NCBI RefSeq assembly: GCF_007993815.1
Contig: NZ_VJWE01000013.1
Span: 186,001 to 250,000, forward strand
DNA from: Acidovorax delafieldii
Lineage (GTDB): Bacteria; Pseudomonadota; Gammaproteobacteria; Burkholderiales; Burkholderiaceae_C
Length of the DNA stretch: 64,000 nucleotides
Direction: 5' to 3'
In this document: one piece after another, positions 144 to 18,016 of the stretch
How the letters are laid out: each line of letters opens with the position of its first letter
Numbering within the stretch: the stretch's first letter is position 1
Made by a program: the position numbers and the translations under genes
The notes under the pieces: model-generated
Databases searched by the model: none
Seen by the model: the letters and a program-made list of their open reading frames with translations, nothing else
What the model was told of the DNA's origin: nothing

Positions 144-1943
144 TCAACGGACTGTGTATTCAGGTACCAGACTCTGGAGCCAGGCACGCAGCGACGAAGC
201 TGCCGGGGCAACCCCTAAACTCTCAATATCGCTGCAGACCGTCTCAGGGTTCAGGCGGCCCGGTGAGCTGGTTTTGGCTACGTGCAGTTTGGGATGTGGT
301 GTCGGAATAGTGGTTTCGCCATTGGCAAGAAGCTCTTCGTAGAGTTTCTCTCCGGGTCTGAGCCCTGTGAACACCACAGGAATTTCCTGCTCGTTTTTGC
401 CAGACAACCGTATCAATATCTTCGCGAGATCAAGGATTTTGACGGGCTCCCCCATATCCAGCACAAAAATCTGCCCTGATTGCCCCATCAAACCAGCCTG
501 CAGAACCAGTTGGGCAGCTTCCGGAATCGTCATGAAGTAACGAACAATGTCCGGATGCGTGACTGTTACAGGACCGCCACGTGCGATCTGAGCAGAAAAC
601 AACGGAACAACCGAGCCACTGGAACCCAACACGTTTCCAAAACGCACGGCCACAAAACGCGTGCTTTCGCATTCGCTAGCCACCGACTGCATAACCAGTT
701 CAGCGAGCCGTTTACTCGCACCCATGACATTGGTCGGGTTGACCGCTTTATCGGTGGATATCAGCACAAAACGCGTAGCTCCGACAGCGCCAGCGACGCG
801 AGTAGCATTCAACGTTCCTAACACATTGGTGCGCAGGGCTTCCACCTCGTTCAAAGACTCCATCAAAGGAACATGCTTGTAGGCGGCAGCATGAAATACC
901 ACCGTCGGTCGGTGGAGCTGAGCAATGGCAAGCAATCGCTCATATTCTCGGACGTTGGCGGTGTAGTAAAGCCCTTGCATTTGGGGATGAGCCCTGCGTA
1001 GCTCTTGCTCCAATTGGTAGATGGCGTATTCGGACACGTCAACACACACAAGCCGCGCAACACCAAAGCGCGCAATCTGGCGGCACAATTCAGATCCAAT
1101 CGAACCTCCTGCACCGGTGACCAGCACCGTCTCTCCGGTAATGAGATCAGACAGGCCCTTTTCATCCAGCGCCACAGGCGCTCTACCCAGCAAGTCCTCC
1201 AGCTCGATACGCCTAGGTTGACCATCTTCAGCGCGCAGCCACTCGTCCGGCCGCGGCATTGTCAAAAGGGGCAGACTCGCTTCGCTAGCACCCATGAGCA
1301 CTTCTCGCCGGGCATCAGACCCTGCGGCCAAGACCACAAGGGCGGCTACCGCTTGGGTGCGCGCAGCAATATGGGAGAGGTCGCCCAAACCTCCCAGCAC
1401 GCTCAGTCCCTGCAGGCTGCGGCCTTTTTCGGCGGCGATGGGACTGACGATACCCACCGGCGACCACAGCCGCGCCCCGCGCAACGCAGGCAGTGCCGCT
1501 GCCGCGTCTTGAACCGAACCCACCAGCAGCAAGGGCTTGCCGGTAGGTGCACTTTGCCCACGGTTGACCAGCAATAGTCGGGCGCTGATGCGGGCACCGC
1601 CCAAAAGCAGCAACACCAACATGGGATGCAACAGCAGCACCGAGCGCGGGAAGGACCCGACTCGCAGCATCAGCACTGCAGACGCAGACAACAAACCGGC
1701 GAACACCACGCCATATACAAGGCGCGTGAGTTCGGCCACGCTGGTATAGCGCCAGATGTGGCGGTACACCCCCCATACCAGCAGACTCGTACCAAACCCG
1801 AGCAACGGCCATGGCAGGGTGTCAACCATCATGGCCTGGAATTCATCGGGTGTCTCGAGGTTGAAGCGGAGCCAAAACGCAAGCCACCAGCCAAGTGCAA
1901 CCAGTGCCAAGTCGATCGGCAGCTGCAGCCAACGGTTGCTCAT
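144..1943 (-). CDS. Nucleoside-diphosphate-sugar 4,6-dehydratase, WbpM/CapD/PglF type membrane protein
   Basis: Polysaccharide-biosynthesis protein of about 599 residues. The N-terminal quarter has four hydrophobic segments (from LALVALGWWLAFWL on), followed by a CoA-binding-like Rossmann region and a C-terminal extended SDR domain with VTGAGGSIGSEL. The family forms UDP-4-keto-6-deoxy-HexNAc from UDP-GlcNAc, the precursor of QuiNAc, FucNAc or bacillosamine. It is the last gene of the glycan operon, after pseI. I chose the ATG at 1943 (MSNRWLQ) because it starts at the first membrane segment; ATG 1967 and GTG 2018 are in frame, and the latter would overlap pseI. No clear Shine-Dalgarno decides it. 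With PseB present upstream, this retaining-type dehydratase implies a second UDP-sugar in the glycan. Confidence 0.88.
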   Translation of the reverse strand: MSNRWLQLPIDLALVALGWWLAFWLRFNLETPDEFQAMMVDTLPWPLLGFGTSLLVWGVYRHIWRYTSVAELTRLVYGVVFAGLLSASAVLMLRVGSFPRSVLLLHPMLVLLLLGGARISARLLLVNRGQSAPTGKPLLLVGSVQDAAAALPALRGARLWSPVGIVSPIAAEKGRSLQGLSVLGGLGDLSHIAARTQAVAALVVLAAGSDARREVLMGASEASLPLLTMPRPDEWLRAEDGQPRRIELEDLLGRAPVALDEKGLSDLITGETVLVTGAGGSIGSELCRQIARFGVARLVCVDVSEYAIYQLEQELRRAHPQMQGLYYTANVREYERLLAIAQLHRPTVVFHAAAYKHVPLMESLNEVEALRTNVLGTLNATRVAGAVGATRFVLISTDKAVNPTNVMGASKRLAELVMQSVASECESTRFVAVRFGNVLGSSGSVVPLFSAQIARGGPVTVTHPDIVRYFMTIPEAAQLVLQAGLMGQSGQIFVLDMGEPVKILDLAKILIRLSGKNEQEIPVVFTGLRPGEKLYEELLANGETTIPTPHPKLHVAKTSSPGRLNPETVCSDIESLGVAPAASSLRAWLQSLVPEYTVR

Positions 1944-1998
1944 AGGCTGCACACTGCTCACGGGCATATCGGTTGCGTGACACAGGGTAGCACGGCGC

Positions 1999-3057
1999 TC
2001 ACGAGTCCTGGCCTTCACCTAGCAGCGACCATGCCATGGGGGTGCCGGCCTTCACATCTTGTCCGATGGACAAACCCAATAGGCTGCCCAGATGCTTGGG
2101 CGCGAGACCGAATCCGGGCCGCACACAGCGCAAGTTTTCAGAGGTGAGCACCTCACCGGCCTGCAAGTCCTTCGCGATGTAGAGCGATCGGCGAAAAGCA
2201 AGTGACCTCATCTCGGCTGCTGTAGGGCCGTAGCTCACTTGCCCCAGTGCCTGCCAAGCACGCTCAGTCTCTTCACGCAACTGACGCAGCTCCTGAGGCT
2301 CCATCGAGAAAGAAGAATCTACGCCACCGTCGGCGCGGTGCAGAGTAAAGTGCTTTTCGATCACCGTTGCGCCTAAAGCTGTAGCCGCCACCGCCACGCC
2401 GCAACCCAGGGTGTGATCCGACAGACCGACTTCGCAGCCGAACAGAGTGCGCATGTGCGGGATGGTCGAAATATTGGTGTTGTCGGCACTCGCCGGGTAA
2501 GTGCTGGTGCACTTGAGCAGCACAAGGTCACGGCATCCGGCGTCGCGCGCAGCGCGCACGGCCTCATCAATCTCGCCTGCCGTGGCCATGCCGGTGGACA
2601 TGATTATGGGCTTGCCGGTAGCCGCCACGCGGCGGATCAGCGGCAGGTCGGTGTTCTCGAACGAGGCAATCTTGTATGCCGGCACATTCAGCGATTCAAG
2701 AAAGTCTACCGAACTGAAATCGAACGGTGTGCTGAAACAATGCACACCGTGGCTGGCAGCGCGCTCCATGATTGGCACGTGCCATTCCCAAGGGGTATGG
2801 GCTTCCGCATACAGCTCGTACAACTGGCGCCCCGCCCATAGACTTTTGGGGTCGTCAATCGTGAAGCCGGGCATGCACAGGTTCAGCGTCATGGTATCGG
2901 CGGTGTAGGTCTGCAGCTTGATGGCGTCAGCACCGTGCGCGGCGGCGGCATCCACGATGGCCAGCGCACGTTCCAGCGACTGGTTGTGGTTGCCAGACAT
3001 TTCCGCGATGAGATAGGGGCGCTGGCAGAGGCCTATGGTGCGATCGAGGATTTTCAT
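1999..3057 (-). CDS. pseI: Pseudaminic acid synthase (NeuB/PseI family)
   Basis: 352 residues. Condenses 2,4-diacetamido-2,4,6-trideoxy-L-altrose with phosphoenolpyruvate to give pseudaminic acid in the cytoplasm. The N-terminal NeuB TIM barrel shows YLIAEMSGNHN and AIKLQTYTADTMTL, then GLSDHTLG and VIEKHFTLHRADGGVDSSFSMEP (family motifs); a C-terminal antifreeze/SAF domain (RSLYIAKDLQAGEVL) follows. The start MKILDRTIG at 3057 is fixed by a 4-nt ATGA overlap with the stop of pseG; an in-frame upstream extension would run into that gene. The EMSGNHN variant and the neighbouring pseG, pseC and pseB argue for PseI rather than sialic (NeuB) or legionaminic (LegI) synthase. Confidence 0.93.
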   Translation of the reverse strand: MKILDRTIGLCQRPYLIAEMSGNHNQSLERALAIVDAAAAHGADAIKLQTYTADTMTLNLCMPGFTIDDPKSLWAGRQLYELYAEAHTPWEWHVPIMERAASHGVHCFSTPFDFSSVDFLESLNVPAYKIASFENTDLPLIRRVAATGKPIIMSTGMATAGEIDEAVRAARDAGCRDLVLLKCTSTYPASADNTNISTIPHMRTLFGCEVGLSDHTLGCGVAVAATALGATVIEKHFTLHRADGGVDSSFSMEPQELRQLREETERAWQALGQVSYGPTAAEMRSLAFRRSLYIAKDLQAGEVLTSENLRCVRPGFGLAPKHLGSLLGLSIGQDVKAGTPMAWSLLGEGQDS

Positions 3058-4589
3058 GATTCGGTGTATTCCGAGGCAGGCAATGGGCCAACCAATTTCC
3101 GGTATCGCAAAGGCCCCCAATGGTATCCAGCAACCTGAAACAGACGTTGTGATGCGGTGTTGCCAGGCAGGACCTGTGCCTCCAAGGTGAAGCCGCCGGG
3201 GTGCAACGCAAGCAGCGCCTGTTCACCGGCCGCCAGCAGTCGCTGCCCCAGGCCCAGGCCTTGCAGGTCTGGGTCGGTATAGAGCGAAACCTCAACATGT
3301 CCGCTGTCGAGCCAGTCGAAACGGATGCTGCCCACGGACAATTGGCCGATCTGGGCAACGAACAACCAGCGCGCAGGGTTCTCCAACACGGCGTGCAGCC
3401 AGCGCTGGTGCGCGTCAAAGGCGATTGTGTCCTGGGAGACCGACACCACGCGCACAGAGAGGTGGTTACGCCACGCATGCAACTGCGAGGCGTCGTCGGG
3501 GGTGGCGGGGCGCAGTTGCAGATGGTCGCGCAGAAGCATCAGAGCCACGCGCTGGGCGCCACGGCCATCAACCAGTGCTGCCGCACGCTCAGAAAGCACA
3601 AGCCGTGCAGTGGGATCCGCGATAAGTTCACGCAGCACGCCCGGCAGGGTCGCTTCATCGGCGGAACGCACCGCGCCCAGTTCTGCCAGACCAGCCACCA
3701 CAGCCGATTGGTTGGCCGCCATGACCAAGGCGACGGTGGGGGCACCGACACAGCAACGCTCCCAGGTCGCCCCACCACCAGCGCCGATCTGCAGGTCATG
3801 GCGTGCGAAGAAGGCCGAGAGATCGGATTGATCTACTGTCAACATGACGCTGGAGTCCGCGGCACAAACCTCACGCAGCGCGTCCAGGCGCGGATTGGCC
3901 GAAGTGGACACAACCTCGATGAGTCCGACAAAACCTGCTGCCCTGCAGGCATCCAACACGCGGGCCGACACGCCCTCCGGGTCGGTTCCTCCCATGAAGA
4001 TACCAAGGCTGCTCACCTTGGGCTGGTAGGCGTAGCGCAACCCTCTCCGGTATGCGGGTGAGAGCAAAGCGTAACGCGGACCAGCCAACCAGCGCGACTC
4101 GCACGCCAGCCGACCCGCGTATTTGGCACGGTGGTCGGGCGCCCAGTTGGGGTCCAGCAAGACATCGGCACTTATTGCACGGTCTGCGGTGTCGTCAATC
4201 ACTAACAGGCGGCAGCCGAGGGATGTACGAACAGTCTCATGCCAGCGCGCATCAAAGGCATAGTGGTCTACCACAATCCAGTCGGGTTGCTTGCTTCGCA
4301 GGGCGTTCGCGGTGTCCTCGGCGTCCTGAAACCACGAAACACGTGCCCATGCAGCATGTGGCGTGGCGGTTGTATTGGTCGAAGTGTCGCCACTGGGTGC
4401 AGGCAACCAGTGCAAACAGCAAGGCGTTTCACGCGACAACACCTGCGCCGCTACAGCGTCCAGAGCGCGCGTTACCAGTATGACCTGAGCACCTTGTTCT
4501 AGGAGCGCGTGCGTCAATGACAGGCAACGCGTTAGGTGACCGGTGCCCATGTTCGCAGATGCATCTACGCGAATCGCCACAAGCGTCAT
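3054..4589 (-). CDS. pseG: PseG UDP-sugar hydrolase fused to a GNAT N-acetyltransferase (PseH-like)
   Basis: 511 residues in two parts. Residues 1 to about 345 are PseG: RVDASANMGTGHLTRCL with the family catalytic His at residue 18, and GAGGATWERCC in the GT-B-like second half. It removes UDP from UDP-2,4-diacetamido-2,4,6-trideoxy-L-altropyranose. Residues about 355-505 are a GNAT fold (LRPATPDDASQLHAWRN, then LQGLGLGQRLL as the acetyl-CoA loop), suited to the PseH step that acetylates the 4-amino group. No separate pseH is present, so the fusion probably supplies it. PseH acts before PseG, so one chain would hold consecutive steps. It sits 6 nt after the methylase and overlaps pseI by 4 nt. 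Confidence 0.9.
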   Translation of the reverse strand: MTLVAIRVDASANMGTGHLTRCLSLTHALLEQGAQVILVTRALDAVAAQVLSRETPCCLHWLPAPSGDTSTNTTATPHAAWARVSWFQDAEDTANALRSKQPDWIVVDHYAFDARWHETVRTSLGCRLLVIDDTADRAISADVLLDPNWAPDHRAKYAGRLACESRWLAGPRYALLSPAYRRGLRYAYQPKVSSLGIFMGGTDPEGVSARVLDACRAAGFVGLIEVVSTSANPRLDALREVCAADSSVMLTVDQSDLSAFFARHDLQIGAGGGATWERCCVGAPTVALVMAANQSAVVAGLAELGAVRSADEATLPGVLRELIADPTARLVLSERAAALVDGRGAQRVALMLLRDHLQLRPATPDDASQLHAWRNHLSVRVVSVSQDTIAFDAHQRWLHAVLENPARWLFVAQIGQLSVGSIRFDWLDSGHVEVSLYTDPDLQGLGLGQRLLAAGEQALLALHPGGFTLEAQVLPGNTASQRLFQVAGYHWGPLRYRKLVGPLPASEYTES

Positions 4590-4595
4590 GTCAGG

Positions 4596-5216
4596 TCAAC
4601 GCTTTTCCATCAAGAACCAAGTGATGTCGTCCTGCGGAAAGCTGGGGTCGCGGCGGTAGGCAAAGCCGTAATCCACTAGTTGCAATTGCGGGTGGCGATC
4701 CATGATCTCGCCCGCAAAGTCGCGCTTGAACAGACGGTCGTCGTGGCCACGATAGGGAATGGCCACCGGCACCGGGTTGTAGTACTCAGCTACCAGAAGA
4801 TAGCGACCGCAGGCGGCGAACAGCTTGTCGTACACCTGGGGGAGCACCTCCTGGTTGATGTGGATGAGCACACCTTTGACAAGGGTCAGGTCCCATTGGC
4901 GCATAGGCACGAAGTCCAAGATAGACGTGTTATAGACTTTTGCCGACGGGATGACCTCGCCCAGTTGGTTCGCGGCCGCGGCGTTGATCTCTATGGCGTA
5001 GGCGTCAATGCCAGGGTGCAGCAGCTTAAGTGCCCTGAGGTTCATGCCGATGTTCGCGCCGAATTCGATACAGCTGCGAAAGCCGCTGGCCTGACGCAGG
5101 GCCTTGCCGAAGAAATCGAGGTTGGAGGCGAGCAGCGCATCGCCCTGGTTGCGCCGGATGTACTCGGTGCCGAAATCGCCGGCCCAGAAGGCTTCCTGCT
5201 CAGTCTTGAAGGTCAT
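4596..5216 (-). CDS. Pseudaminic acid biosynthesis-associated methylase (TIGR03587-like)
   Basis: 206 residues, class I SAM-dependent methyltransferase fold: glycine-rich loop CIEFGANIGMNL near residue 50 and the acidic strand AYAIEIN. The short, distinctive N-terminus (TEQEAFWAGDFGTEYIRRN) and the VKGVLIHINQE segment match the methylase family found almost only in pseudaminic acid loci. Its exact substrate is, as far as I know, unproven; O- or N-methylation of a Pse intermediate or of the sugar nucleotide is the usual proposal. Start overlaps the stop of the SpsF-like gene by 4 nt, so it is translationally coupled inside the pse block. Confidence 0.88.
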   Translation of the reverse strand: MTFKTEQEAFWAGDFGTEYIRRNQGDALLASNLDFFGKALRQASGFRSCIEFGANIGMNLRALKLLHPGIDAYAIEINAAAANQLGEVIPSAKVYNTSILDFVPMRQWDLTLVKGVLIHINQEVLPQVYDKLFAACGRYLLVAEYYNPVPVAIPYRGHDDRLFKRDFAGEIMDRHPQLQLVDYGFAYRRDPSFPQDDITWFLMEKR

Positions 5217-5968
5217 GGGTTATTCTTGACGGTCTGGGTTTCGTTCGCTGGCTTCTGCATGATGTGCTGGTTGAGCGCGATCCAGTCGGGGTGCTGGTCC
5301 AACAGTGTCAACACGTCGGCCTGATTGAAATAGGGCTTGGTCGGCATCAAGTGGTCGAACAAACGACTGACGAGCGCATAGTCCTCGGGGGTATCCACAG
5401 TCCAGCGATGCTGGCTCAGGTCCACAGGGCTGGCAACATTGCACAGGCGGTAACGCTCGGGGCGCCAGTAGAGAAATGGCGTGACGTGCTCACGCTCGGC
5501 CGCTTGGGTGGCTTCTTCATGGGCCTGAGCCAGCACAGCCTCGCTAAACACCTCCACAGCCATGCCGTATGGCCAGGTTGGCGGCAGCATATTGGAGACG
5601 TAGTCGCCGCAGCCCTCTTCATAGGCGTTGATCACCCGGTCGATCAACGCCGGGTCGATCAGCGGACAATCGGAGGTGACGCGCACAACCGTGTCGGCGC
5701 CGTGCAGTCGTGCAGCGTCGGCATAACGGGAAAGCACGTCGTGTTCGAGCCCCCGATGGCAGGAAACGCCCAGCTGCGCGCACAGCCCAGCGATCGGATC
5801 GTCGGTCACGTTGGTGGTGCTGGCAACGACGATACCGTCGGCGCGCTGCACTCGGCGCAGCCGCTCGACTAGCCGCGTGAGCATAGGTTCGCTAGCCAAG
5901 GGCAGCAGCACCTTGCCCGGCAGTCGGGTCGAGGTCATGCGCGCCTGGACGATGATCAGTGTGGTCAT
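5213..5968 (-). CDS. SpsF-like cytidylyltransferase, probable CMP-pseudaminate synthetase
   Basis: 251 residues, nucleotidyltransferase of the SpsF group. It opens with IIVQARMTSTRLPGKVLLPL, the nucleotide-binding loop of this group, and has VRVTSDCPLIDP and a C-terminal RWTVDTPEDYALV. In Bacillus sps loci the corresponding protein sits with PseC-, PseG- and PseI-like enzymes. No classical PseF/NeuA-type synthetase (ARGGSKR motif) is encoded in the window, so this gene is the likely source of CMP-Pse. That role is inferred from position; the sequence only shows the nucleotidyltransferase family. ATGA overlaps on both sides (with pseC and with the methylase). Confidence 0.85.
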   Translation of the reverse strand: MTTLIIVQARMTSTRLPGKVLLPLASEPMLTRLVERLRRVQRADGIVVASTTNVTDDPIAGLCAQLGVSCHRGLEHDVLSRYADAARLHGADTVVRVTSDCPLIDPALIDRVINAYEEGCGDYVSNMLPPTWPYGMAVEVFSEAVLAQAHEEATQAAEREHVTPFLYWRPERYRLCNVASPVDLSQHRWTVDTPEDYALVSRLFDHLMPTKPYFNQADVLTLLDQHPDWIALNQHIMQKPANETQTVKNNP

Positions 5969-7140
5969 GCCTGCAAGGCCGCTGTCAGCGCCGCCACCAC
6001 ACGGTCCTGTTGAACATCTGTCAGGGATGGGTAAAGCGGGATTGAAAGGGCTTGTACAGCATAGGCCTCGGCGGCCGGGAACTGGCCAGGCTGAAAGCCC
6101 AGGCCGCGATAGTACGGCTGCAGCGGAATCGGTTCGTAGTGCACATTGACACCGATGCCAGCCTCGCGCATACGAGTGAACACGGTGGCGCGGTCGGCCA
6201 CGCCAAGGCCCGGCAGCAGCTCCACCACGTAGAGGTGCCAGGACGAATGGGCAGTCGAGCCCGGGCCGGGCACGCGGGCCGGCCGCCGCAGGGGCAGCTT
6301 AGCCAGCAATTGGTCGTAGCGTTCGGCCAGACGTTCGCGGGCGGCTTGGAAGCTGTCGATGCGCTGTAGCTGCGAGTGGCCCAGGGCGGCCTGGATGTCC
6401 GTCATCCGATAGTTGAAGCCCAGGCTGTGCTGTTCGTAGTGCCAAGCACCCGTTTCAGGGTGATCCATCTCACACACCTCACGCGTGATGCCGTGCGACC
6501 GAAGCAGCTGTAGACTGCGCGCCAGCGCAGCGTCCTGCGTGGTCACCATGCCGCCTTCACCGGTGGTCACGATCTTGACCGGATGGAAGCTGAACACGCT
6601 GGCGTCGGCATATGCGCTCCCAATAGGCTGGCCGTTGTAAAGGGCGCCCACAGAGTGGGACGCATCTTCCAGGACCTTGAAACCGTAACGGTCCGCCAAC
6701 GCTCGCATGGGCACGAGGTCGCAGGGCAAGCCGCCGAAATGCACCGGAATCACTATGGCGGGCAGGCGGCCGTCGCGTTCGGCCTGTTCCAGTCTCACAG
6801 CCAAGCCCGCCACACTCATGTTCCGGGTGACGGGGTCGATGTCCACGAAGTCCACATCTGCACCGCAGTACAGCGCGCTGTTGGCCGAGGCAACGAAGGT
6901 ATTCGGGCTGGTCCACACGGTCTTACCTGGACCTGCACCTAGAGCAAGGCAGGCGATGTGCAAGCCGGCGGTGGCGTTGGACACGGCCACCGCGTGAGCT
7001 ACACAGTGCCGCTGCGCGAAAGCCTGCTCAAACCTTGGCACAGCTGGGCCCTGGGTCAACCAACCCGAGGTCAGAGCCTCGCGCACTGCTGCCAAGTCGT
7101 CTTCATTGATCGACTGTGTGGCGTAGGGGATGAAGTCCAT
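5965..7140 (-). CDS. pseC: UDP-4-amino-4,6-dideoxy-N-acetyl-beta-L-altrosamine transaminase
   Basis: 391 residues, PLP-dependent DegT/DnrJ/EryC1 aminotransferase. It transfers an amino group to C4 of the 4-keto product of PseB. Seen: SNATAGLHIA (phosphate-binding), EDASHSVGA with the Asp that contacts the PLP ring, and SFHPVKIVTTGEGG with the Schiff-base Lys at residue 189. The start MDFIPYATQ at 7140 lies 13 nt after the pseB stop and matches the family N-terminus; the open frame runs further up into pseB but that extension has no family resemblance. Length agrees with PseC. Confidence 0.93.
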   Translation of the reverse strand: MDFIPYATQSINEDDLAAVREALTSGWLTQGPAVPRFEQAFAQRHCVAHAVAVSNATAGLHIACLALGAGPGKTVWTSPNTFVASANSALYCGADVDFVDIDPVTRNMSVAGLAVRLEQAERDGRLPAIVIPVHFGGLPCDLVPMRALADRYGFKVLEDASHSVGALYNGQPIGSAYADASVFSFHPVKIVTTGEGGMVTTQDAALARSLQLLRSHGITREVCEMDHPETGAWHYEQHSLGFNYRMTDIQAALGHSQLQRIDSFQAARERLAERYDQLLAKLPLRRPARVPGPGSTAHSSWHLYVVELLPGLGVADRATVFTRMREAGIGVNVHYEPIPLQPYYRGLGFQPGQFPAAEAYAVQALSIPLYPSLTDVQQDRVVAALTAALQA

Positions 7141-7153
7141 GACGCTGCCCGGA

Positions 7154-8152
7154 TCAGATGCGGCCGATCTTGTCCTGGTGCTGGGCGATCCAGGCCTGCA
7201 GGGCGGACACGTCCATCCACTCGGTGTTATTGTCACTGGCGTAGGTGAAGCCTGCGGGCACGCGCCGCCCGTCCTTAATACGCTTGAAGTCCTCGTGCCA
7301 GCTGTGAATGGCGGGCAGTATCTTGAAGTGCTCCGGGTATTCATAAGTGTAGTAGGCGTCTTCCGGACTGATCATCTGTTCATGCAGTTTCTCGCCAGGA
7401 CGGATACCCACGATCTCGTGCTGTGCTTCAGGGTCGACCGCCAGGGCGATATCGGTCACCTTCATCGACGGGATCTTCTTGACATAGATCTCGCCGCCCT
7501 CCATGTCCTCGAATGCGTGCCAGACCAGCTCCACGCCCTGTTCAAGGCTGATCATGAAGCGGGTCATGCGCGCGTCGGTCACTGGCAAAGATCCTTTACC
7601 CTTCTGTGTCAGGAAGAATGGAATGACCGAACCGCGCGAACCCATGACATTTCCGTAGCGCACTACCGAGAACTTGCATCCATCGACACCAGCGTAGGAA
7701 TTCCCTGCAACGAACAACTTATCAGAAGCGAGCTTGGTCGCTCCGTAGAGATTCACTGGGCTGCTGGCCTTGTCGGTGGACAGGGCCACCACACCCTTGA
7801 CCCGCCGGTCAATACATGCATCGATCACGTTCATAGCACCATTCACGTTAGTTTTGACGCATTCGAACGGGTTGTACTCTGCTGTGGGTACGATCTTGGT
7901 GGCGGCGGCGTGAACCACGTAATCCACCCCATCCAGCGCCCGGTACATGCGCTCGCGGTCGCGTACGTCGCCGATAAAAAAGCGCACTCGTTCGTCACCC
8001 CGGAACAACTTGGCCATTTCCCACTGCTTCATCTCGTCGCGCGAGTAAACGATGAGCTTGCGAGGGTTGTAGCGCGCCAGGGTCATGGGCACGAAAGTGT
8101 GGCCGAACGATCCGGTGCCGCCGGTGATGAGTATGGTGGACTGGTTCAGCAT
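7154..8152 (-). CDS. pseB: UDP-N-acetylglucosamine 4,6-dehydratase (inverting), PseB
   Basis: 332 residues, short-form extended SDR. First step of pseudaminic acid synthesis: C5-inverting dehydration of UDP-GlcNAc to the 4-keto-L-arabino sugar. Seen: ITGGTGSFG nucleotide loop (residues 10-17), VHAAATKIVPTAEYNP, and the catalytic set STDKA (Asp127, Lys128) with Tyr136-x3-Lys140 (NLYGATK). The lack of an N-terminal membrane domain separates it from the WbpM-like protein at 144-1943. A 45-nt AT-richer gap separates it from the upstream HisF-WbpG gene, the widest gap in the operon, and might hold an internal promoter. Confidence 0.94.
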   Translation of the reverse strand: MLNQSTILITGGTGSFGHTFVPMTLARYNPRKLIVYSRDEMKQWEMAKLFRGDERVRFFIGDVRDRERMYRALDGVDYVVHAAATKIVPTAEYNPFECVKTNVNGAMNVIDACIDRRVKGVVALSTDKASSPVNLYGATKLASDKLFVAGNSYAGVDGCKFSVVRYGNVMGSRGSVIPFFLTQKGKGSLPVTDARMTRFMISLEQGVELVWHAFEDMEGGEIYVKKIPSMKVTDIALAVDPEAQHEIVGIRPGEKLHEQMISPEDAYYTYEYPEHFKILPAIHSWHEDFKRIKDGRRVPAGFTYASDNNTEWMDVSALQAWIAQHQDKIGRI

Positions 8153-8197
8153 GTCCTGAGAGCGGATTAAAGTGGAAAAAAATGCCTAGCGATTCAC

Positions 8198-10240
8198 CTA
8201 GTCACTGAGCTCGTGTCTCCTCCAGCCACCATCAAACCACCATACCCGCGGGTCCCGGAAGGTGTCAGCGATAGCATCGAAGGTGGTTTCATCCATACCC
8301 ACGTAATTCAGCCAGCGCTGCACATCAAACGGCTTGACCGGGTCGTGATGCCGAGCCAACGCAATGCCTTCAGCGCGCGATAGTACGCCACTGCGGATGT
8401 CTTTGGATGCGTGATCTGTACAGCGGCCATAACCGAACTTCACGTATTTCATGTAGTCGTGCGCGCCGTTCTCGTGCATGTCGTCTAGGTTGGACGCTCG
8501 GCGGTAGGTGCGTTCAAACGGCGTGTTGCCTGCCTCAAAACCGTACAACTCAGAAGCCAGTTTACTGTTAGCGTTACCGTCCCATGGTACATAGTTAGAG
8601 AGGTAGATACCCTTGAGGTTGAGGTCAAAAAGCTCTTGATCACTGGGGTACTGGTAAGGCACCATGTCAGCCGCCGTGATGTCTTCGAAGCCCACCATGT
8701 AGTTCCACTCGTAGCCGCGGCCAAAATGCTCAAGGCGATTGCGGTAGCTCCACTCAACAAAGTCGTTCATGGAGAACTGCCCGCACAAGTCGGCATAGCC
8801 GTGCTCACCCCAAACTACCAAAGGAATCTTATGCAACGCAGCGATTTTCATTGGCAGTGTGGCGATACCCATATGGCCGTGCCAGTTCATATCCCCCATA
8901 ATCTGGAAGCCTAGGCGATTGAGCTTTTTCAGCAGGGTCACACTGGGTTTGTAGATGATGTGATCTACATCGAACACCTCGGCCATGCGCCGCAAGTTGT
9001 ATTCGCCCTCTGGGGTGTAGTTGTTGCCGTAATACGTTACCAAGAGCGGTTTGTAGCCCAACACGTTCTTTACGTAGTGAGTCTGGAAGTAGCTATCCTT
9101 GCCACCTGAGACGCCAATGACGCAGTCGTGCCGCGTTCCGTCGGATGAACGGGCTTGTTCAAAAATTCCTCGCAGGATTGTGCCGCGACGTTGCCATTCC
9201 GAGGCTCCGAAATCGGTCTTCATCTGCGCCATCTGGCAACCCGTGCACAACCCCTTGGCGTCGTACTCCATGGGTGTGGCACTCAGTGATGGATACAGAC
9301 ATTGTGTGCACCAGCGCATCTTTCGTTCACGCGGATCCTGCGCCGCTGCGAAAAGACCTTGGCGCGCATGGCTCATCCGCATCTCGAGTTTGGCTTTTTC
9401 AATTTGAAAGTCGTATTGCGGTTCACGCGTAAACCACTTGTTGGCGAGTTGCACGGGCCGCATGGCAACCCCCGCATCGATGCAAGTTTTTTTGGCGTGC
9501 GGGTAAGCCAGCTCATAGAAGTTGAAGATGTTGGCTGCAGCTGCGGCACTGGCGCCGGCTTCATTCAAAGCGGGCACGAAGTCAGCGTATGTGCCGACAC
9601 CACCGCAAGCAATCACGGGGATCGATACTGACGTTGTAACCGCCTGAACCAATGCAAGGTCATAGCCGGTGCCAGCACCATCGCGGTCCACAGAGTTGAG
9701 CACGATCTCGCCCGCGCCCCGTTGTTCACACTCGCGTGCCCACGCCAATGGATCAAGCCCAGTCGGCGTTCTACCGCCGTCGATCATCACTTCCAAGCGA
9801 CCATCGCGATGGCGAAGCACGTCGATGCTTACCACCACGGCCTGGGCACCAAATGCCCTCGAGGCCTCAGTCAGCAGTGCAGGGTTGCGCACCGCCTCGG
9901 AGTTGATGACGCATTTGTCTGCACCTGCAGCAAAGCGTTCGCGCATAGCCTCGATATCTCGAATGCCGCCTCCCACCGCCAGCGGCATGAAGCACAGTTT
10001 GGCGATCTCAGGAAGCAAGCCCAGCAGGGTGGTGCCTTGGTATTGCACCTGGAGGTCGTCGCGACGCAGGTCATGGCGGTCTTCGGTAGAGATATCGAGC
10101 AAGATCAGCTCATCAACGTTCCAGTTGGAGAGCCGACGCACCGTGTGCATAGGGTTACCGATGCTTTGATGGATACTGAACAGTTGGCTACGTACTATCA
10201 GTCCGTTCTTGAGCAGTAGCACCGGGATGAGGCGTTTCAT
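8198..10240 (-). CDS. HisF-like / N-acetyl sugar amidotransferase (WbpG/PseA) fusion
   Basis: 680 residues. Residues 1-255 are a HisF TIM barrel (AVGGGIRDIEAM, IACGGVGTYADF, Asp140 in VVVSID), but the N-terminal IPCLDV of true HisF reads IPVLLLKNG, so the catalytic Asp11 of the cyclase is replaced by Leu. Residues about 305-680 are an N-acetyl sugar amidotransferase: Cys pairs CTQC (311-314) and CTGC (332-335), then the ATP PP-loop SGGKDS (378-383) and PLVVWGEHG. The family uses ammonia relayed from HisH through the HisF barrel to turn an N-acetyl group into an acetamidino group. In known loci (P. aeruginosa wbpG/hisH/hisF, Campylobacter pseA) these are separate proteins. HisH lies 6 nt upstream. 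Confidence 0.92.
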   Translation of the reverse strand: MKRLIPVLLLKNGLIVRSQLFSIHQSIGNPMHTVRRLSNWNVDELILLDISTEDRHDLRRDDLQVQYQGTTLLGLLPEIAKLCFMPLAVGGGIRDIEAMRERFAAGADKCVINSEAVRNPALLTEASRAFGAQAVVVSIDVLRHRDGRLEVMIDGGRTPTGLDPLAWARECEQRGAGEIVLNSVDRDGAGTGYDLALVQAVTTSVSIPVIACGGVGTYADFVPALNEAGASAAAAANIFNFYELAYPHAKKTCIDAGVAMRPVQLANKWFTREPQYDFQIEKAKLEMRMSHARQGLFAAAQDPRERKMRWCTQCLYPSLSATPMEYDAKGLCTGCQMAQMKTDFGASEWQRRGTILRGIFEQARSSDGTRHDCVIGVSGGKDSYFQTHYVKNVLGYKPLLVTYYGNNYTPEGEYNLRRMAEVFDVDHIIYKPSVTLLKKLNRLGFQIMGDMNWHGHMGIATLPMKIAALHKIPLVVWGEHGYADLCGQFSMNDFVEWSYRNRLEHFGRGYEWNYMVGFEDITAADMVPYQYPSDQELFDLNLKGIYLSNYVPWDGNANSKLASELYGFEAGNTPFERTYRRASNLDDMHENGAHDYMKYVKFGYGRCTDHASKDIRSGVLSRAEGIALARHHDPVKPFDVQRWLNYVGMDETTFDAIADTFRDPRVWWFDGGWRRHELSD

Positions 10241-10246
10241 GTTCGA

Positions 10247-10882
10247 TCAGCGGAAGTGACAAACTAGTGCGTGAAGGAGGTCCAAGCCGGGCTCCTGGCT
10301 TTTCTCAGGGTGAAACTGAGTCCCCAGCACTCGACCCCGAGCCACAATGCTGGCGATGTCTTCTTCAGCAAAACGCGATGTGCCGATGCAGTGAGAAGGC
10401 GACTTCACCTCAAAGTGGTAGCTATGCACATGGTAGAAATTAGCGCCGTCGAGAACGGCTGGTAGCATTGCCGTTGAATACTCGTTCAAATGAACCGTGC
10501 GCCAGCCTACATTTGGCACGCGATGGTCTGGCAGCTTTTCTCGCAACCTGACCACCTGCCCTGGGATCAGTCCCAAACCTGGATGTTCGCCATGCTCCTG
10601 GCTGGAATCTCCGAGCAGCTGCATGCCCAAACAGAACCCTACAACGGGACGCTGGCGCTCTAAAGCATGGTGTTGAATCACCTCCGCCAGCCCGCTTTGA
10701 AACAAGCGTCGCGAAGCCTCTGCAAATGAGCCTACACCCGGCAGTACCAGCAGGTCAGCCTGCGCTATCGCGGCTGCATCGCGTGCAACTATCACCCGCG
10801 CGCCCACCAAATTCAGAGCTTGGGTCACTGACAATATATTCTGGATTTGCAAGTCCACCAAAGTAACTACGCGTTGGGGCAT
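10247..10882 (-). CDS. hisH: HisH-type glutamine amidotransferase subunit of the sugar amidination system
   Basis: 211 residues, class I glutamine amidotransferase. It hydrolyses glutamine and passes ammonia to the partner synthase. Catalytic triad is intact: Cys84 (VGFCLGMQLL), His191 and Glu193 (GTQFHPEKSQ). The oxyanion strand LPGVGSF is present. It lies directly before the HisF-WbpG fusion with a 6-nt gap, far from any his operon, so it is the glycan paralogue (HisH2-like) rather than the histidine biosynthesis enzyme. A role in histidine synthesis is unlikely because the adjacent HisF lacks its cyclase aspartate. Confidence 0.9.
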   Translation of the reverse strand: MPQRVVTLVDLQIQNILSVTQALNLVGARVIVARDAAAIAQADLLVLPGVGSFAEASRRLFQSGLAEVIQHHALERQRPVVGFCLGMQLLGDSSQEHGEHPGLGLIPGQVVRLREKLPDHRVPNVGWRTVHLNEYSTAMLPAVLDGANFYHVHSYHFEVKSPSHCIGTSRFAEEDIASIVARGRVLGTQFHPEKSQEPGLDLLHALVCHFR

Positions 10883-10918: not shown

Positions 10919-11929
10919 TCAAATTGGCTTGCGCGCCAAGACCCAGAGATTTGAGGAAAGCCCTTGCGCTATCAGATAGTCTTGGAACGCTTGGCCATGC
11001 TGCTCCCATCCGTCAAGCAACACCCTCTTCAAAAACGGCTGATGGCTCAGGTCGAATGAACCTTCGAGCACCTTGTTGCGCACCAATTCGGCATCCAGCA
11101 AACCCGGGGTGAACGACTCTAGTACGTCCAAGCCAACGCGCCGCAGCATTTTTTCAAGCGATGCGGCATTGAAGTAGTTCAGATGCTCATGATCAACCGT
11201 ATCGCTCACAGGGCCAAGTGTCTCGATGTCAAAGCCTTGTCCATTGGGGCAGGTCAGCAACAGCAGCCCGCCAGGGCGCAGCAAGCGAACCATCTGCAGG
11301 GCAAAGTCCAGGGGGCTAAACAGGTGTTCGATAACTTCGAAGCTGGCGACTACGTCGAACAAGTCCGTAGACTGCAGAGTGACCTCCTCGATCGGCATTT
11401 CGAGCACTTCAATGCCACGCTCTCGGCAACTGATGGCAAGCCCTGGTGTCGGCTCGACAGCCACGACTCGCTTGAAAACGTTTCGCGACATGAGCTCAGC
11501 ACAGAAAGTACCGAATCCCGCACCGACTTCCAGTAGTGAGTCCGTCCGGGTCTGGTGCCGGGCGCATATCTCCAGCAAGCGATTGACCCGAGGCACAAAA
11601 ATCCGAGTCCTCCGCGAAACCTCCGATGCAGGGAAGATGTGGGCATTCCAGTACGCGTAGTTTGGAGAGTCGCGGTAAAACCAAGCCAAAACTTCAGCTG
11701 TAGGCCGGGGTGAGACATAGAGAGTTTGGCAATCTTCACACCGAACGTACCGTAGTCCATTTTTGCTGTACTGCGCTGTACGTCGATGAACGCCACACGC
11801 TGGGCAATCCACCTCAACGAATTCACTGTAGCGCGTGAGAAGACGACCCACGTCGGTAAGTGCTGCGACCTTCTGGCCCGTCATCAAATTTTTCGGGCGA
11901 ATTTCTTCCTCAGTCAGTTTTGTCGTCAT
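10919..11929 (-). CDS. SAM-dependent methyltransferase with N-terminal zinc ribbon
   Basis: 336 residues. Residues 40-70 carry CPAC (42-45) and CEDC (64-67), a zinc-ribbon pair. Residues about 130-235 are a class I methyltransferase domain with motif I LLEVGAGFGTF, motif II VVAVEPTP and FEVIEHLFSP. The layout is like the C-methyltransferase and unknown methyltransferases of O-antigen loci (COG2227-like). The substrate is not evident. It overlaps the stop of the glycosyltransferase gene by 4 nt and precedes hisH by 36 nt. It is unrelated in sequence to the second methylase at 4596-5216, so the operon encodes two different methyl transfer steps. Confidence 0.82.
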   Translation of the reverse strand: MTTKLTEEEIRPKNLMTGQKVAALTDVGRLLTRYSEFVEVDCPACGVHRRTAQYSKNGLRYVRCEDCQTLYVSPRPTAEVLAWFYRDSPNYAYWNAHIFPASEVSRRTRIFVPRVNRLLEICARHQTRTDSLLEVGAGFGTFCAELMSRNVFKRVVAVEPTPGLAISCRERGIEVLEMPIEEVTLQSTDLFDVVASFEVIEHLFSPLDFALQMVRLLRPGGLLLLTCPNGQGFDIETLGPVSDTVDHEHLNYFNAASLEKMLRRVGLDVLESFTPGLLDAELVRNKVLEGSFDLSHQPFLKRVLLDGWEQHGQAFQDYLIAQGLSSNLWVLARKPI

Positions 11930-13194
11930 GGAGAGTTCAAAAGTTGTAGAGCCAGCTCGGCAATGCGGGGTGTAGCAGGCCCTTGAGGGACAGACACAGG
12001 GCGGTCAGCAGCTGGCGCTGGGCGATTGTTGAGCATGGTTGCAATCTCGTCGAGGCTGTTTACCAACTCACTGGGGCCAAGACTCCCCAAGTCGAAGTCG
12101 GCACTCTGAACCCAGGCGGAAAACCCAAGGTGGAGTACGCGCTTACCGAGCACGGCCGCTTGCAGTCCAACCGTACTAACTTGGTGGATCACCGTATCAG
12201 CTGCTTGCAGCAAGGGGGCAATCGGATCCACCCTCGGGATACTCAAGTGCACACATTCCTGCGGTGCTAGGCGCGCAAACTCGTGATACTGAGCCGGGTG
12301 GTAGCGAACGATCAGACCGGTCTGAGGCGTATTCTTGACCCAGGCTCGCAGAGCTTGCTCTACGGCCAGGCCAAAAGCAGCGCCGGGAAAAGTCGCGTGA
12401 TCCGGCTCAAGTATCCCGGCCCAAAGCACTATGTGAAATCCTTCCCAGCCCAACTTCGCCCTCAGAGCTCGACCCTGCTCCACAGCGCAAGGGTCAAAAA
12501 GTTCGTCGAAATCGGGGCTACCGGTCACAAACACCTGATTAGATGCGAGGCCGTGGGCAAGGAATCTCTCACGCACCTCTGTGGCGATGACAGTAATGCA
12601 CCGGGCATGCACAGGTCTGTAGAGAAAGGGGTCAGACTCTGGCGCAAACAAATCAACCATCGTGAGCGTTGGGATACCACGACTAACTGCGGAACGAATC
12701 GCTGCCTCCTCGGATCGAGGCGTGCTGGTAGCCACGACTAGGCCGGGCTGCAGAGCATCCAGCACCCGCCCCATGAAATCGACCGGCATGAACCCTTGGC
12801 GACCCCTCTGCTGATACCGCAGGCGGGCGGCCACCTCACCTTCGGCATCAACCCATTGCAAGAAGTTGATACCCAAGTAGCAACGCGTTTCCTCCAAATC
12901 GACTTCGGGATGTGTGTTGCCGACCAGCAGGCGATCTCCCCACGATAGTGCCTCCTCCATTCGAGGACCTAGCAGGGGCAGGAAATCCCGATAGCCCATA
13001 GGTTCAAGTCCCAGCTGCCGAGCCTTCGGATAGCCAATCGTGAGTGCCATCAACAAACACTCAACGCCCTGTCGTCGCAACTCGCGAACCACTGGCGCAA
13101 TTTTGGCGATGTGGCCAGCGCCATAGCTAACAAAAAAAGCCCTTCGCCGCGGATCGCGCGTGCGGAAGCGCGGCAGAGTCTGCGAGTTCAGCAT
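11926..13194 (-). CDS. GT-B-fold glycosyltransferase, candidate nonulosonate transferase
   Basis: 422 residues. The N-terminal VSYGAGHIAKIAPVVRELRRQG is a GT-B entry motif as in UDP-GlcNAc 2-epimerase-like and capsule transferases. In the C-terminal domain are RYHP (His299-Pro300) and VIHQVSTVGLQAAVLGKR (Ser340-Thr341). An HP motif followed by an S/T-S/T motif is the nucleotide-binding signature of bacterial sialyl- and Kdo-transferases, so transfer of CMP-Pse is a reasonable guess, but a CDP- or UDP-sugar user cannot be excluded. Start ATG 13194 (MLNSQTLP) overlaps asnB by 7 nt; another ATG lies at 13206. Confidence 0.7.
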   Translation of the reverse strand: MLNSQTLPRFRTRDPRRRAFFVSYGAGHIAKIAPVVRELRRQGVECLLMALTIGYPKARQLGLEPMGYRDFLPLLGPRMEEALSWGDRLLVGNTHPEVDLEETRCYLGINFLQWVDAEGEVAARLRYQQRGRQGFMPVDFMGRVLDALQPGLVVATSTPRSEEAAIRSAVSRGIPTLTMVDLFAPESDPFLYRPVHARCITVIATEVRERFLAHGLASNQVFVTGSPDFDELFDPCAVEQGRALRAKLGWEGFHIVLWAGILEPDHATFPGAAFGLAVEQALRAWVKNTPQTGLIVRYHPAQYHEFARLAPQECVHLSIPRVDPIAPLLQAADTVIHQVSTVGLQAAVLGKRVLHLGFSAWVQSADFDLGSLGPSELVNSLDEIATMLNNRPAPAADRPVSVPQGPATPRIAELALQLLNSP

Positions 13195-14969
13195 GCAGTA
13201 CTCCAAATTTCTAACGCGGCCAGCGCACGTAGCTCCCGAGTGAAGTTACCTTGGCCGTCCCTATGCCGATCCAACATACAGCCCAATATTGTGGGATCGA
13301 ACAATCGTCCGATTACTTCACTGCCCTGCAGGGTCTGACGCAACCAGCCATGCAACTCGCCTTGGAACCAATCACCGATGGGCACAGTGAACATTTGCTT
13401 CTTGCGGTACGCCAATTCGTTACCTATCAGCGGTGCAGCCGCCCGCTTCAACCAATGCTTTTTGTCGCCCCGCGCCGATAGCTTGGTCGCGCCGCGCGAG
13501 CGAAAGGCGAACTGCATCATCCGCCAGTCCAGGAATGGTGTGCGCGCCTCAATACTCGCAGCCATACCCATCCGGTCGGGCTTGACAAGGTTGTTACCGC
13601 TCAGTAGCAGCTGCATATCTAAGTAGAGCGCCTGGTTGATACGGTCAAAATGGCATGCCTCTTCGAACCAGGGTTGGGCCGCAGCAGTGAAGCTGTCGAC
13701 GCCAGCCAGTTGCGCGCGCACTTCTGACCGATACAGCGCGGTCTTGGCCTTGGGAGTGAATAGCGAAATACTGTCAAAGTAACTGCGCTCAAACGCGGTT
13801 TGCGGCAAAGTCAGTGCATCTGGCTGCGCGAAGAACTGGGCATATTTGTCGTAACCAGCAAATAGTTCGTCGCCGCCGTCACCTGTCAGCACCACCTTGA
13901 CCTGCTTCGCCGCGAGTTCGCTCACGCGCAGGGTGGGCATGAAAGAAGCATCACCATGCGGCTGGTCCAGGTGATGCAGTGCGCGGGGCCACTGCGCCAA
14001 CATATTCAATTCGGCAACTTCCATCGTATGGTCACAACCAAAACGCTGGGCGGCCTGTAGAGCGAAGGCCGACTCGTCGTAGCGCAAGTCTTCAAAGCCT
14101 ATACAAAAGGTTTTGACCGGCTCCCGCACGTGGCGCGCCATCAGTCCGACGATGGTGCTCGAATCGACCCCACCCGAAAGGAAAGCGCCAAAGGGTACGT
14201 CGGCACGCAAGCGGATGCGGGTGGCGTCGTCGAGCAAAGCCATGAACTCATCGGACCAATCGCCAAACTCAAAGTCTTGCTCACGCTGGTCTGCCAGGCT
14301 CCACCAGCGCTGCGTCTGCACATGGCGGCCCCGCGTGTATTTGTGCCAGGTGCCAGGCATGACATGGCACACGCCTTCGTAGGCCGTCCACGGCGCAGGG
14401 ACATAGTTGAACGTCAGGTAATGATGGATTGCTTCCAGGCACATACCAGGCTTGCGCCGAACGGCCGGCCACAGGGCCTTGGGCTCAGAGCCAAACAGCA
14501 TACGTTGGCCGTCGTCGTACACAAACAGGGGCTTGACGCCGATGCGGTCGCGCGCCAGATACAACGCGTCTTCGCGCGCATCGTCGATGGCAATAGCGAA
14601 CATACCGTTCAGGCGACTCAGGCAGGAGATGCCCTCGCGCTCGTACAGGCGCAGGATGACTTCGGTGTCCGACTGCGTGCGCAGACGCACGCCCTGGGAG
14701 CGCAGCTCGGCGGCCAACTCCAAGTGATTGAAGATTTCGCCGTTTTGCACCACGGCAACCAAGCCGTCGTCGCTGACAAAGGGCTGGTGACCGCCGCCTA
14801 GATCGATGATGGACAGCCGCCGGTTGCCGATAGCTACACCCCGCTGGGGCTGGTGGTGGATGCCTTCGTCGTCCGGTCCGCGGTGCACCAGCGCTTGCGC
14901 CATGCCGCGCAGGACTTTATCGTCCAACGACTGTTGTATGCGATCCCAGTAGCCAAAGATACCGCACAT
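13188..14969 (-). CDS. asnB: AsnB-type glutamine-dependent amidotransferase
   Basis: 593 residues. N-terminal Ntn glutaminase with Cys2 as nucleophile (MCGIFGYWDR), VHRGPDDEG and QNGEIFNH; C-terminal ATP-pyrophosphatase domain with SGGVDS (265-270) and VLTGDGGDELFAGY. The family adenylates a carboxylate and amidates it with glutamine-derived ammonia. It may be an asparagine synthetase, but a position between a phosphoglycosyl transferase and a glycosyltransferase suggests amidation of a uronic acid, as proposed for WbpS in Pseudomonas O-antigen loci. The sequence alone does not decide between the two. Three nt separate it from the upstream gene. Confidence 0.88.
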   Translation of the reverse strand: MCGIFGYWDRIQQSLDDKVLRGMAQALVHRGPDDEGIHHQPQRGVAIGNRRLSIIDLGGGHQPFVSDDGLVAVVQNGEIFNHLELAAELRSQGVRLRTQSDTEVILRLYEREGISCLSRLNGMFAIAIDDAREDALYLARDRIGVKPLFVYDDGQRMLFGSEPKALWPAVRRKPGMCLEAIHHYLTFNYVPAPWTAYEGVCHVMPGTWHKYTRGRHVQTQRWWSLADQREQDFEFGDWSDEFMALLDDATRIRLRADVPFGAFLSGGVDSSTIVGLMARHVREPVKTFCIGFEDLRYDESAFALQAAQRFGCDHTMEVAELNMLAQWPRALHHLDQPHGDASFMPTLRVSELAAKQVKVVLTGDGGDELFAGYDKYAQFFAQPDALTLPQTAFERSYFDSISLFTPKAKTALYRSEVRAQLAGVDSFTAAAQPWFEEACHFDRINQALYLDMQLLLSGNNLVKPDRMGMAASIEARTPFLDWRMMQFAFRSRGATKLSARGDKKHWLKRAAAPLIGNELAYRKKQMFTVPIGDWFQGELHGWLRQTLQGSEVIGRLFDPTILGCMLDRHRDGQGNFTRELRALAALEIWSTAC

Positions 14970-14972
14970 GGT

Positions 14973-15527
14973 TCAGTTCGCGCCCTGGCCGCCCAGGCGC
15001 TTGAATGTCCACCAGCAGATCTTCAGGTCGAGCCAGAGCGAAGCTTCGCGTGTGTAGCACAGGTCGGCTTCGAGCCGCTGCACCTCTGTCGAATCGGACC
15101 GGTACAGGGCCTGAGCCAGCCCTGTGATACCGGGTCGCACGCTGCAACGCTGCGCCCAATCAGCGTCGGTGTATAGGCTGCGCTGAGCGGGCACGTCGGG
15201 ACGCGGGCCGACTAAGCTCATCTCACCCGTAAGCACATTAAATAGCTGAGGCAGTTCATCGATGCTGGTGCGGCGTATGAAGCGGCCAACGCGGGTGATG
15301 CGCGGATCATTTTCAGCGGTGAAATATGGCCCCATCTGAGCCGCATTCTTCACCATGCTGCGAAATTTGTACATGCCGAACTCTTGGCCATTCAGACCCA
15401 GGCGGGTCTGCCGGAAAAGAACCGGAAAACCCGTTTCTAAAGCAATCGCCAGCGCAGCCACCAACAGCAGCGGGCCCAGGACCAGCAGCGCCACCAAGGA
15501 AAGCACGATATCCACGCCGCGCTTCAA
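14973..15527 (-). CDS. Monotopic phosphoglycosyl transferase (PglC/WcaJ-domain type)
   Basis: 184 residues, the minimal bacterial sugar transferase domain. One reentrant/hydrophobic segment (VDIVLSLVALLVLGPLLLVAALAIAL) is followed by PVLFRQTRLGLNG, the catalytic Asp-Glu dyad in SIDELPQLFNVL (residues 90-91) and MSLVGPRPD. It moves a sugar-1-phosphate from a UDP-sugar to undecaprenyl phosphate, the initiating step for a lipid-linked glycan. The small size is PglC-like; UDP-bacillosamine or a QuiNAc/FucNAc relative would fit with the WbpM-like dehydratase at the operon end. Start overlaps the aldolase stop by 4 nt. Confidence 0.9.
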   Translation of the reverse strand: MKRGVDIVLSLVALLVLGPLLLVAALAIALETGFPVLFRQTRLGLNGQEFGMYKFRSMVKNAAQMGPYFTAENDPRITRVGRFIRRTSIDELPQLFNVLTGEMSLVGPRPDVPAQRSLYTDADWAQRCSVRPGITGLAQALYRSDSTEVQRLEADLCYTREASLWLDLKICWWTFKRLGGQGAN

Positions 15528-17897: not shown

Positions 17898-18016
17898 GCG
17901 GCAAATTATCCGGGCTCAGACGGGTACAAGCACCCCACGGCACGTGCAAAAAACTAAAATCACAGGTTTTGGTTCGAATAACGCCTCTGAACGCCTCCAT
18001 TTGCGGGCGGCTCTCC
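17898..18016. other. Divergent intergenic region between glycan operon and lysS
   Basis: 119 bp between the start of the flippase gene (minus) and lysS (plus). It must hold the main promoter of the glycan operon and probably that of lysS. An A/T-rich patch around 17945-17970 (with TAAAAT at about 17955) is the only promoter-like part I see; no convincing -35/-10 pair or operator is evident on either strand. Confidence 0.4.

Follow-up and report, generated by a model that had tools for sequence, protein, structure and literature searches.

A HisF-WbpG fusion in the pseudaminic acid locus of Acidovorax delafieldii and its predicted role in sugar amidination

The amidination module and the pseudaminic acid genes

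We analysed a stretch of 64,000 nucleotides of the Acidovorax delafieldii genome (the window; NCBI RefSeq assembly GCF_007993815.1, contig NZ_VJWE01000013.1), which carries a locus for pseudaminic acid (Pse) biosynthesis together with genes for a HisH-type glutaminase subunit and for a fusion of a HisF-like barrel with a WbpG-type sugar amidotransferase. An earlier note on this DNA had described HisH and the fusion directly ahead of PseB and PseC and had predicted an acetamidino-Pse or an amidinated co-sugar from this position; the observation is confirmed and its interpretation is partly supported. The coordinates and the minus strand reported there hold for all genes. Transcription runs from genes for a MurJ-like protein, an HpcH-family protein, an initiating sugar-phosphate transferase, an AsnB-like protein, a putative glycosyltransferase and a methyltransferase to those for HisH, the HisF-WbpG fusion, PseB, PseC, a cytidylyltransferase, a Pse-associated methylase, PseG-PseH, PseI and a WbpM-like dehydratase.

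The HisH-type subunit (211 amino acids, 10247..10882, minus strand as for all genes below) scored 191 bits with the NCBIfam model TIGR01855 (cut-off 105). The fusion (680 amino acids, 8198..10240) consists of a HisF-like barrel (residues 1-261; 9458..10240), a linker (residues 262-307; 9320..9457) and a WbpG/WbuX N-acetyl-sugar amidotransferase domain (8198..9319), of which residues 308-658 matched the WbuX model TIGR03573 with 274 bits, above its cut-off of 203.2. Residues 1-261 are of HisF type and stay below every cut-off (WbuZ 245 of 300 bits, hisF 217 of 295, AglZ_HisF2 215 of 310); the N-terminal half is a HisF2-like domain and not a member of the AglZ/HisF2 or WbuZ model.

PseB (7154..8152; 529 bits, cut-off 408) and PseC (5965..7140; 492 bits, cut-off 424) follow, both identified by NCBIfam models. 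The PseC frame is open to 7344, but the model match sets in at residue 71, which puts the probable start near 7140. Next come a cytidylyltransferase in the PseF position (5213..5968), which matched KdsB-like and other models, all below cut-off, the methylase associated with Pse biosynthesis (4596..5216; TIGR03587, 280 bits, cut-off 112), a PseG-PseH fusion (3054..4589; 220 bits for PseG with a cut-off of 154, 49 bits for the PseH half with a cut-off of 93) and PseI (1999..3120; NCBIfam, 489 bits, cut-off 340). The module does share its gene run with all Pse steps, as had been claimed, with PseB, PseC, PseG and PseI above their cut-offs and the PseH half and the PseF position weaker. PseG and PseH form a single frame in the window, and comparable joined frames occur in related loci.

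Distribution, conserved residues and proposed mechanism of the fusion

The fusion was found as one open frame of 680-693 amino acids in eight genomes (the length at locus L100 being counted after removal of an upstream frame extension), so that the fused architecture noticed earlier recurs beyond the window. Besides the window genome, the carriers are two genomes of the same order (G037 and G421), two of the same phylum (G441 and G711), a Ramlibacter metagenome-assembled genome, a Rhodoferax and Magnetospirillum aberrantis. The eight fusions are monophyletic in the tree of the WbpG half (100/100; 43 rows, SGGxDS in 39 of them, the four rows without the pattern being non-fusions) and in that of the HisF half (100/99; built without seven HisA sequences), and the single clade in both trees would be in keeping with one fusion event. 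A sequencing or frameshift artefact is ruled out, because the frame is open in eight genomes and each half forms a single clade. The linker varies among the eight fusions (8 of 46 positions invariant) more than the HisF-like domain (102 of 261) and the WbpG domain (165 of 373) do.

The full-length fusion was not seen in the 35 genomes of the same genus that were searched, and the locus is therefore probably accessory. A search of plasmids gave 12 records, all matching the HisF half only and none reaching 80% query coverage. In the whole-genome searches, scoring was limited to the top first-look candidates of each genome (4 or 5 for WbpG, PseI and the methyltransferase), and for this reason absences are not proof. 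No description of a HisF-WbpG fusion was seen in searches of an open-access library, judged from listings and a few passages. The chemistry of such amidotransferases is already known; joining two of the parts in one chain is a minor new variation.

The WbpG half carries the PP-loop SGGKDS and the zinc cysteines CTQC...CTGC, and both motifs are present in all eight fusions. According to excerpts of PMC10607449, from which, as from the other papers cited here, only parts are drawn, the SGGxDS PP-loop and the CxxC...CxxC zinc motif define the N-acetyl sugar amidotransferases. AlphaFold modelled the fusion with pLDDT 82 and pTM 0.82. The best structural match found by Foldseek is the N-acetyl sugar amidotransferase 8WEX (LpNASAT), with a TM score of 0.80 by target length. 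The fusion and 8WEX share the fold of the WbpG half, the PP-loop and the zinc tetracysteine; they differ in sequence (28% identity in Foldseek), and 8WEX covers the WbpG half only, HisF structures matching the other half. With the WbuX model above its cut-off and both motifs kept, amidination, as suggested in the earlier note, appears to be the likely chemistry.

HisH, aligned with solved HisH, keeps the Cys of GFCLGMQ and the His/Glu of QFHPEK, which we take to be catalytic. For the barrel we assume the numbering and roles of HisF residues, with Asp11 and Asp130 as presumed catalytic residues and Arg5, Glu46, Lys99 and Glu167 as presumed ammonia gate. The Asp11 equivalent is Leu in all eight fusions, the one of the window included; Asp11 is likewise lost in all 23 separate HisF genes, which come from 22 WbpG loci (none counted for L088, L093 and L110), and is kept in 9/9 ordinary HisF (9 of 17 fetched loci compared, HisA lying also at 7 of those 9). 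The four gate residues are all kept in the eight fusions; the 23 separate HisF genes all retain Arg5 and Glu167, 21 of them retain Glu46 and 19 Lys99. Asp130 is kept in 8/8 fusions and 21/23 separate genes. The pair of aspartates by which the HisF of imidazole glycerol phosphate synthase is recognised is thus incomplete in the fusion (Asp130 present, Asp11 absent), which also stays below the cut-off of the hisF model. Loss of Asp11 in 31/31 HisF domains examined from WbpG loci, together with a gate kept in 8/8 fusions, provides a sequence argument for these barrels as conduits. Furthermore, compared with ordinary HisF, the fusions and ten separate relatives have 11-13 additional residues (12 in the window) behind the second strand, and these 18 proteins form one clade (100/98).

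On another contig of the same genome lies a separate HisF above cut-off with a HisA-like match beside it, which argues that the fusion locus is not the histidine pathway; together with the loss of Asp11 it rules out a role of the fusion and HisH in histidine biosynthesis. Since HisH and HisF are folds of that pathway, one could also imagine a relic or duplicated piece of it that has no sugar function, but a frame intact in eight genomes, in which the PP-loop and cysteines persist throughout and Asp11 is uniformly missing, next to a separate HisF elsewhere, makes this hardly credible.

We think it probable that the module is a glutamine-fed N-acetyl-sugar amidotransferase which makes acetamidino-Pse here, with ammonia delivered through the HisF barrel. 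HisH would hydrolyse glutamine, and the ammonia would be routed via the HisF-like barrel, whose own cyclase chemistry would be lost, to the covalently joined WbpG domain. This domain would activate the N-acetyl carbonyl with ATP by means of its PP-loop, and ammonia would replace the oxygen to give an acetamidino group. The substrate in the window genome would most likely be CMP-pseudaminic acid from the adjacent pathway, and the product, perhaps N-methylated further by the neighbouring methyltransferase, would be incorporated into a surface glycan. Each chemical step, like the substrate, the methylation and the glycan, we infer from the genes, the fusion, the kept and lost residues and the co-occurrence read in the sequences. 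As the barrel, thought to carry ammonia, is joined to the acceptor enzyme, the supposed HisH/HisF/WbpG tunnel could be tested on two proteins instead of three.

Compared by context and function, the module resembles PseA with HisH/HisF of Campylobacter jejuni, where an N-acetyl-sugar amidotransferase likewise lies in a complete Pse locus with acetamidino-Pse as the predicted product. HisH and HisF are presumably neighbours of PseA there, with HisF and PseA as separate genes, whereas in the window HisF and the WbpG-type half are fused. WbpG-HisH2-HisF2 of Pseudomonas aeruginosa O5 and WbuX of Escherichia coli O145, both of which we take to have HisH/HisF partners, belong to the same family (TIGR03573 above cut-off), and to our knowledge these sets are not fused. 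Their products are ManNAc3NAmA and FucNAm, respectively, and not nonulosonates (PMC10607449). In a Sphingomonas polysaccharide locus, a WbuX/HisF2/HisH set consists of separate genes (PMC11340318).

The substrate of the amidotransferase

PseA has been named a CMP-Pse5Ac7Am acetamidino-synthase (PMC13317340). The window genome gave one NeuB-family match, the PseI described above, which lies in the same gene run as the fusion; Pse is the only nonulosonate that the genome is seen to make. The context is therefore that of a PseA-type enzyme, a complete Pse locus with PseI as sole nonulosonate synthase, in which the PseH half and the protein in the PseF position stay below the model cut-offs. NeuB genes were classed by TIGR03586; the PF03102 score was rejected as an unreliable classifier because a gene of genome G799 (L135) reaches 298 bits and yet is not PseI.

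Among 399 sampled genomes of the order, the window genome included, WbpG-type genes (E <= 1e-25) were found in 38 and PseI in 57, both being present in 20 (Fisher test, 2.6e-9). Near relatives of the WbpG half (E <= 1e-50, a split chosen post hoc after inspection of the table) occur in 19 genomes, 17 of which have PseI, always on the contig of the WbpG gene and no more than 10 kb away (Fisher test, 5.9e-14; both tests treat genomes as independent, though they are kin). The other 19 genomes, with weaker WbpG matches, have PseI in three cases and within 10 kb in one. Other Pse loci of the order, against which the earlier note had proposed to search the fusion, repeatedly include HisH, HisF and WbpG as well. 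The note had also held such amidination to be rarely described outside Campylobacter-like and Pseudomonas-like bacteria, which fails because amidinated sugars are published for several genera and because Pse/WbpG loci are recurrent in the order, a WbpG-type gene lying <=10 kb from PseI in 18 of the 57 PseI-positive genomes. Acetamidino-Pse has been reported in Campylobacter and predicted in Clostridium (PMC3958885, PMC13317340), an acetamidino legionaminic acid is described for Aliivibrio (PMC7371886) and Pse5Am7Gra for Tannerella (PMC6120980); amidinated nonulosonates or other amidinated sugars are likewise reported or predicted in Legionella and E. coli O145. The excerpts of PMC13130089 give only the prevalence of pseA in C. 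jejuni. Our data suggest that amidinated Pse may be widespread in the order and not a speciality of few pathogens.

Several findings weigh against Pse as the substrate of all fusions. PseI above cut-off is present in four of the eight fusion genomes (window, Ramlibacter, Rhodoferax, G441), and on the contig of the fusion only in three (window, L082, L083), the PseI of G441 being on another contig. The remaining four (G037, G421, G711 and M. aberrantis; the G421 assembly is 89% complete) are without PseI above cut-off and have other NeuB-type synthases instead. In addition to the fusion, G037, G421 and G711 each have a free-standing WbpG, which lies some 2-4 kb from a NeuB-type gene and closer to it than the fusion does; in G711, which has two NeuB-type genes, the separate WbpG is nearer to one and the fusion nearer to the other. 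Adjacency to Pse alone thus does not fix the substrate, and we rejected it as proof. This weakens the earlier prediction of acetamidino-Pse from adjacency; Pse is our best guess for the window. If the Pse-less assemblies are complete in this region, the fusion acts there on a substrate other than Pse. In M. aberrantis a LegB above cut-off (L094 7285-8292) adjoins HisH and the fusion, which hints at legionaminic acid as a possible substrate there. In G441, the contig of the fusion opens (L100 1-260), directly before HisH, with a frame end that by eye looks similar to the C-terminus of PseB.

The missing PseI in half of the carriers would also fit a fusion whose amidination target is a different N-acetylated sugar within the glycan, Pse staying diacetylated. 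Such a sugar could arise for example via the dehydratase at 144..2018, which has a PseB-like domain far below the PseB cut-off and which we take to be of WbpM/FlaA1 type. WbpM-like proteins (41-48% identity) lie, as in the window, around the fusions of G037, G421 and G711, and within the enzyme family WbuX acts on FucNAc and WbpG en route to ManNAc3NAmA (PMC10607449). The close tie of near WbpG relatives to PseI in the order speaks against this, as does a NeuB-family match in all eight fusion genomes, although such a match is also present in 9 of 14 control genomes. On balance we regard another sugar as rather unlikely and acetamidino-Pse as the preferred product.

An AsnB-like amidotransferase (13188..14969) lies in the same gene run as the Pse and fusion genes and might amidinate Pse itself, HisH and HisF-WbpG serving something else. 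An AsnB-like protein of Tannerella, Tanf_01265, has been proposed as putative enzyme for acetamidino formation on Pse (PMC6120980), which weighs for this enzyme and against the fusion. The protein of the window, however, exceeds the cut-off of the general asparagine-synthase model asn_synth_AEB and comes near XrtA/PEP-CTERM-type models, below their cut-off, and sugar amidination is credited to WbuX-type enzymes in PMC10607449 and PMC3766260; a role of AsnB instead of the fusion seems very improbable.

Among 19 mapped loci, four (L103-L106) show the gene order PseB, PseC, a second NeuB-type gene, HisH, HisF, WbpG, PseG and PseI. The second NeuB-type gene, which is unlike PseI, lies between PseC and HisH (L103 7188-8264, L104 8369-9460, L105 7280-8359, L106 7163-8248); the L103 copy is below the cut-offs of the PseI and NeuB models. 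In five PseI loci (L107, L108, L109, L111 and L113), two WbpG-type genes surround one HisH and one HisF, and it is conceivable that one ammonia source feeds two amidotransferases to give a doubly amidinated sugar. Two HisH/HisF sets and three WbpG-type genes are packed into 9.4 kb of a Margulisiibacteriota contig (L085 341-9732).

The companion methyltransferase and the surface glycan

Directly upstream of HisH in the direction of transcription, a Methyltransf_23 protein (10919..11929) is a candidate amidine N-methyltransferase. Genes of this type adjoin HisH or the fusion in the window and in L082, L083, L098 and L099, and one gene off in L101 (six of eight loci). In the 12 mapped loci with separate HisF and WbpG, the methyltransferase adjoins WbpG in two (L086 and L092). 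Homologues (E <= 1e-45) occur in 5 of the 399 genomes of the order (G000, G037, G421, G209 and G355), all five belonging to the 38 WbpG-positive genomes (Fisher test, 6e-6, uncorrected for kinship, with <=5 candidates scored per genome); in G355 the gene is about 24 kb from WbpG. The methyltransferase tends to accompany the amidination module, in genomes without Pse as well. It was not seen near the fusion in the other two loci, L094 and L100, the latter beginning at a contig end, and this weighs against the scheme proposed above.

Since all five carriers also have WbpG, an N-methylated amidine is a possible end product, for which PtmH on legionaminic acid offers a precedent by analogy. PtmG and PtmH act on CMP-legionaminic acid, PtmH methylating the acetamidino group of CMP-Leg5Am7Ac (PMC3766260). 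Like ORF 28/ORF 8 of Legionella, this pair exemplifies amidination followed by N-methylation on a CMP-nonulosonate (PMC3766260); the sugar is legionaminic acid there and Pse here, and the methyltransferases are likened by context only. More tentatively, the fusion could be a hard-wired ammonia-tunnel amidotransferase with a broad nonulosonate range, which together with the methyltransferase would yield an N-methylacetimidoyl Pse, the cassette of HisH, fusion and methyltransferase serving another nonulosonate in genomes that lack Pse; we hold this wider scheme to be possible but doubtful.

An amidine alters the charge of a surface sugar, and the upstream genes of the locus bear on where that sugar would go. 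They encode a putative surface-carbohydrate glycosyltransferase (11926..13206; weak matches to the BFO_1060 family and TIGR04396, below cut-off, and no Pfam match), which is a candidate Pse transferase, an initiating sugar-phosphate transferase (Bac_transf, 14973..15527) and a MurJ-family flippase-like protein (16371..17897), above the Pfam and below the NCBIfam MurJ cut-off. No polymerase was identified in the set of scanned proteins, and the combination of initiating transferase, single putative glycosyltransferase and flippase-like protein would make a short surface glycan a plausible destination. As for flagella, the window genome has three flagellin matches, on a different contig. The family PF01973, which we take to be linked to Maf, gave no match in this genome, in a search that detected the family in only four of 14 controls, all of them archaeal, and that may not reach bacterial Maf.

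Left of the locus, ten proteins were scanned with Pfam, and no glycan-locus genes were evident among them; four matched a family (YGGT, FimV_N, beta-CASP and NAD-GH) and six matched none. On the right, the locus is followed by an open reading frame (17969-19561) which we take, from its sequence, to encode lysyl-tRNA synthetase.

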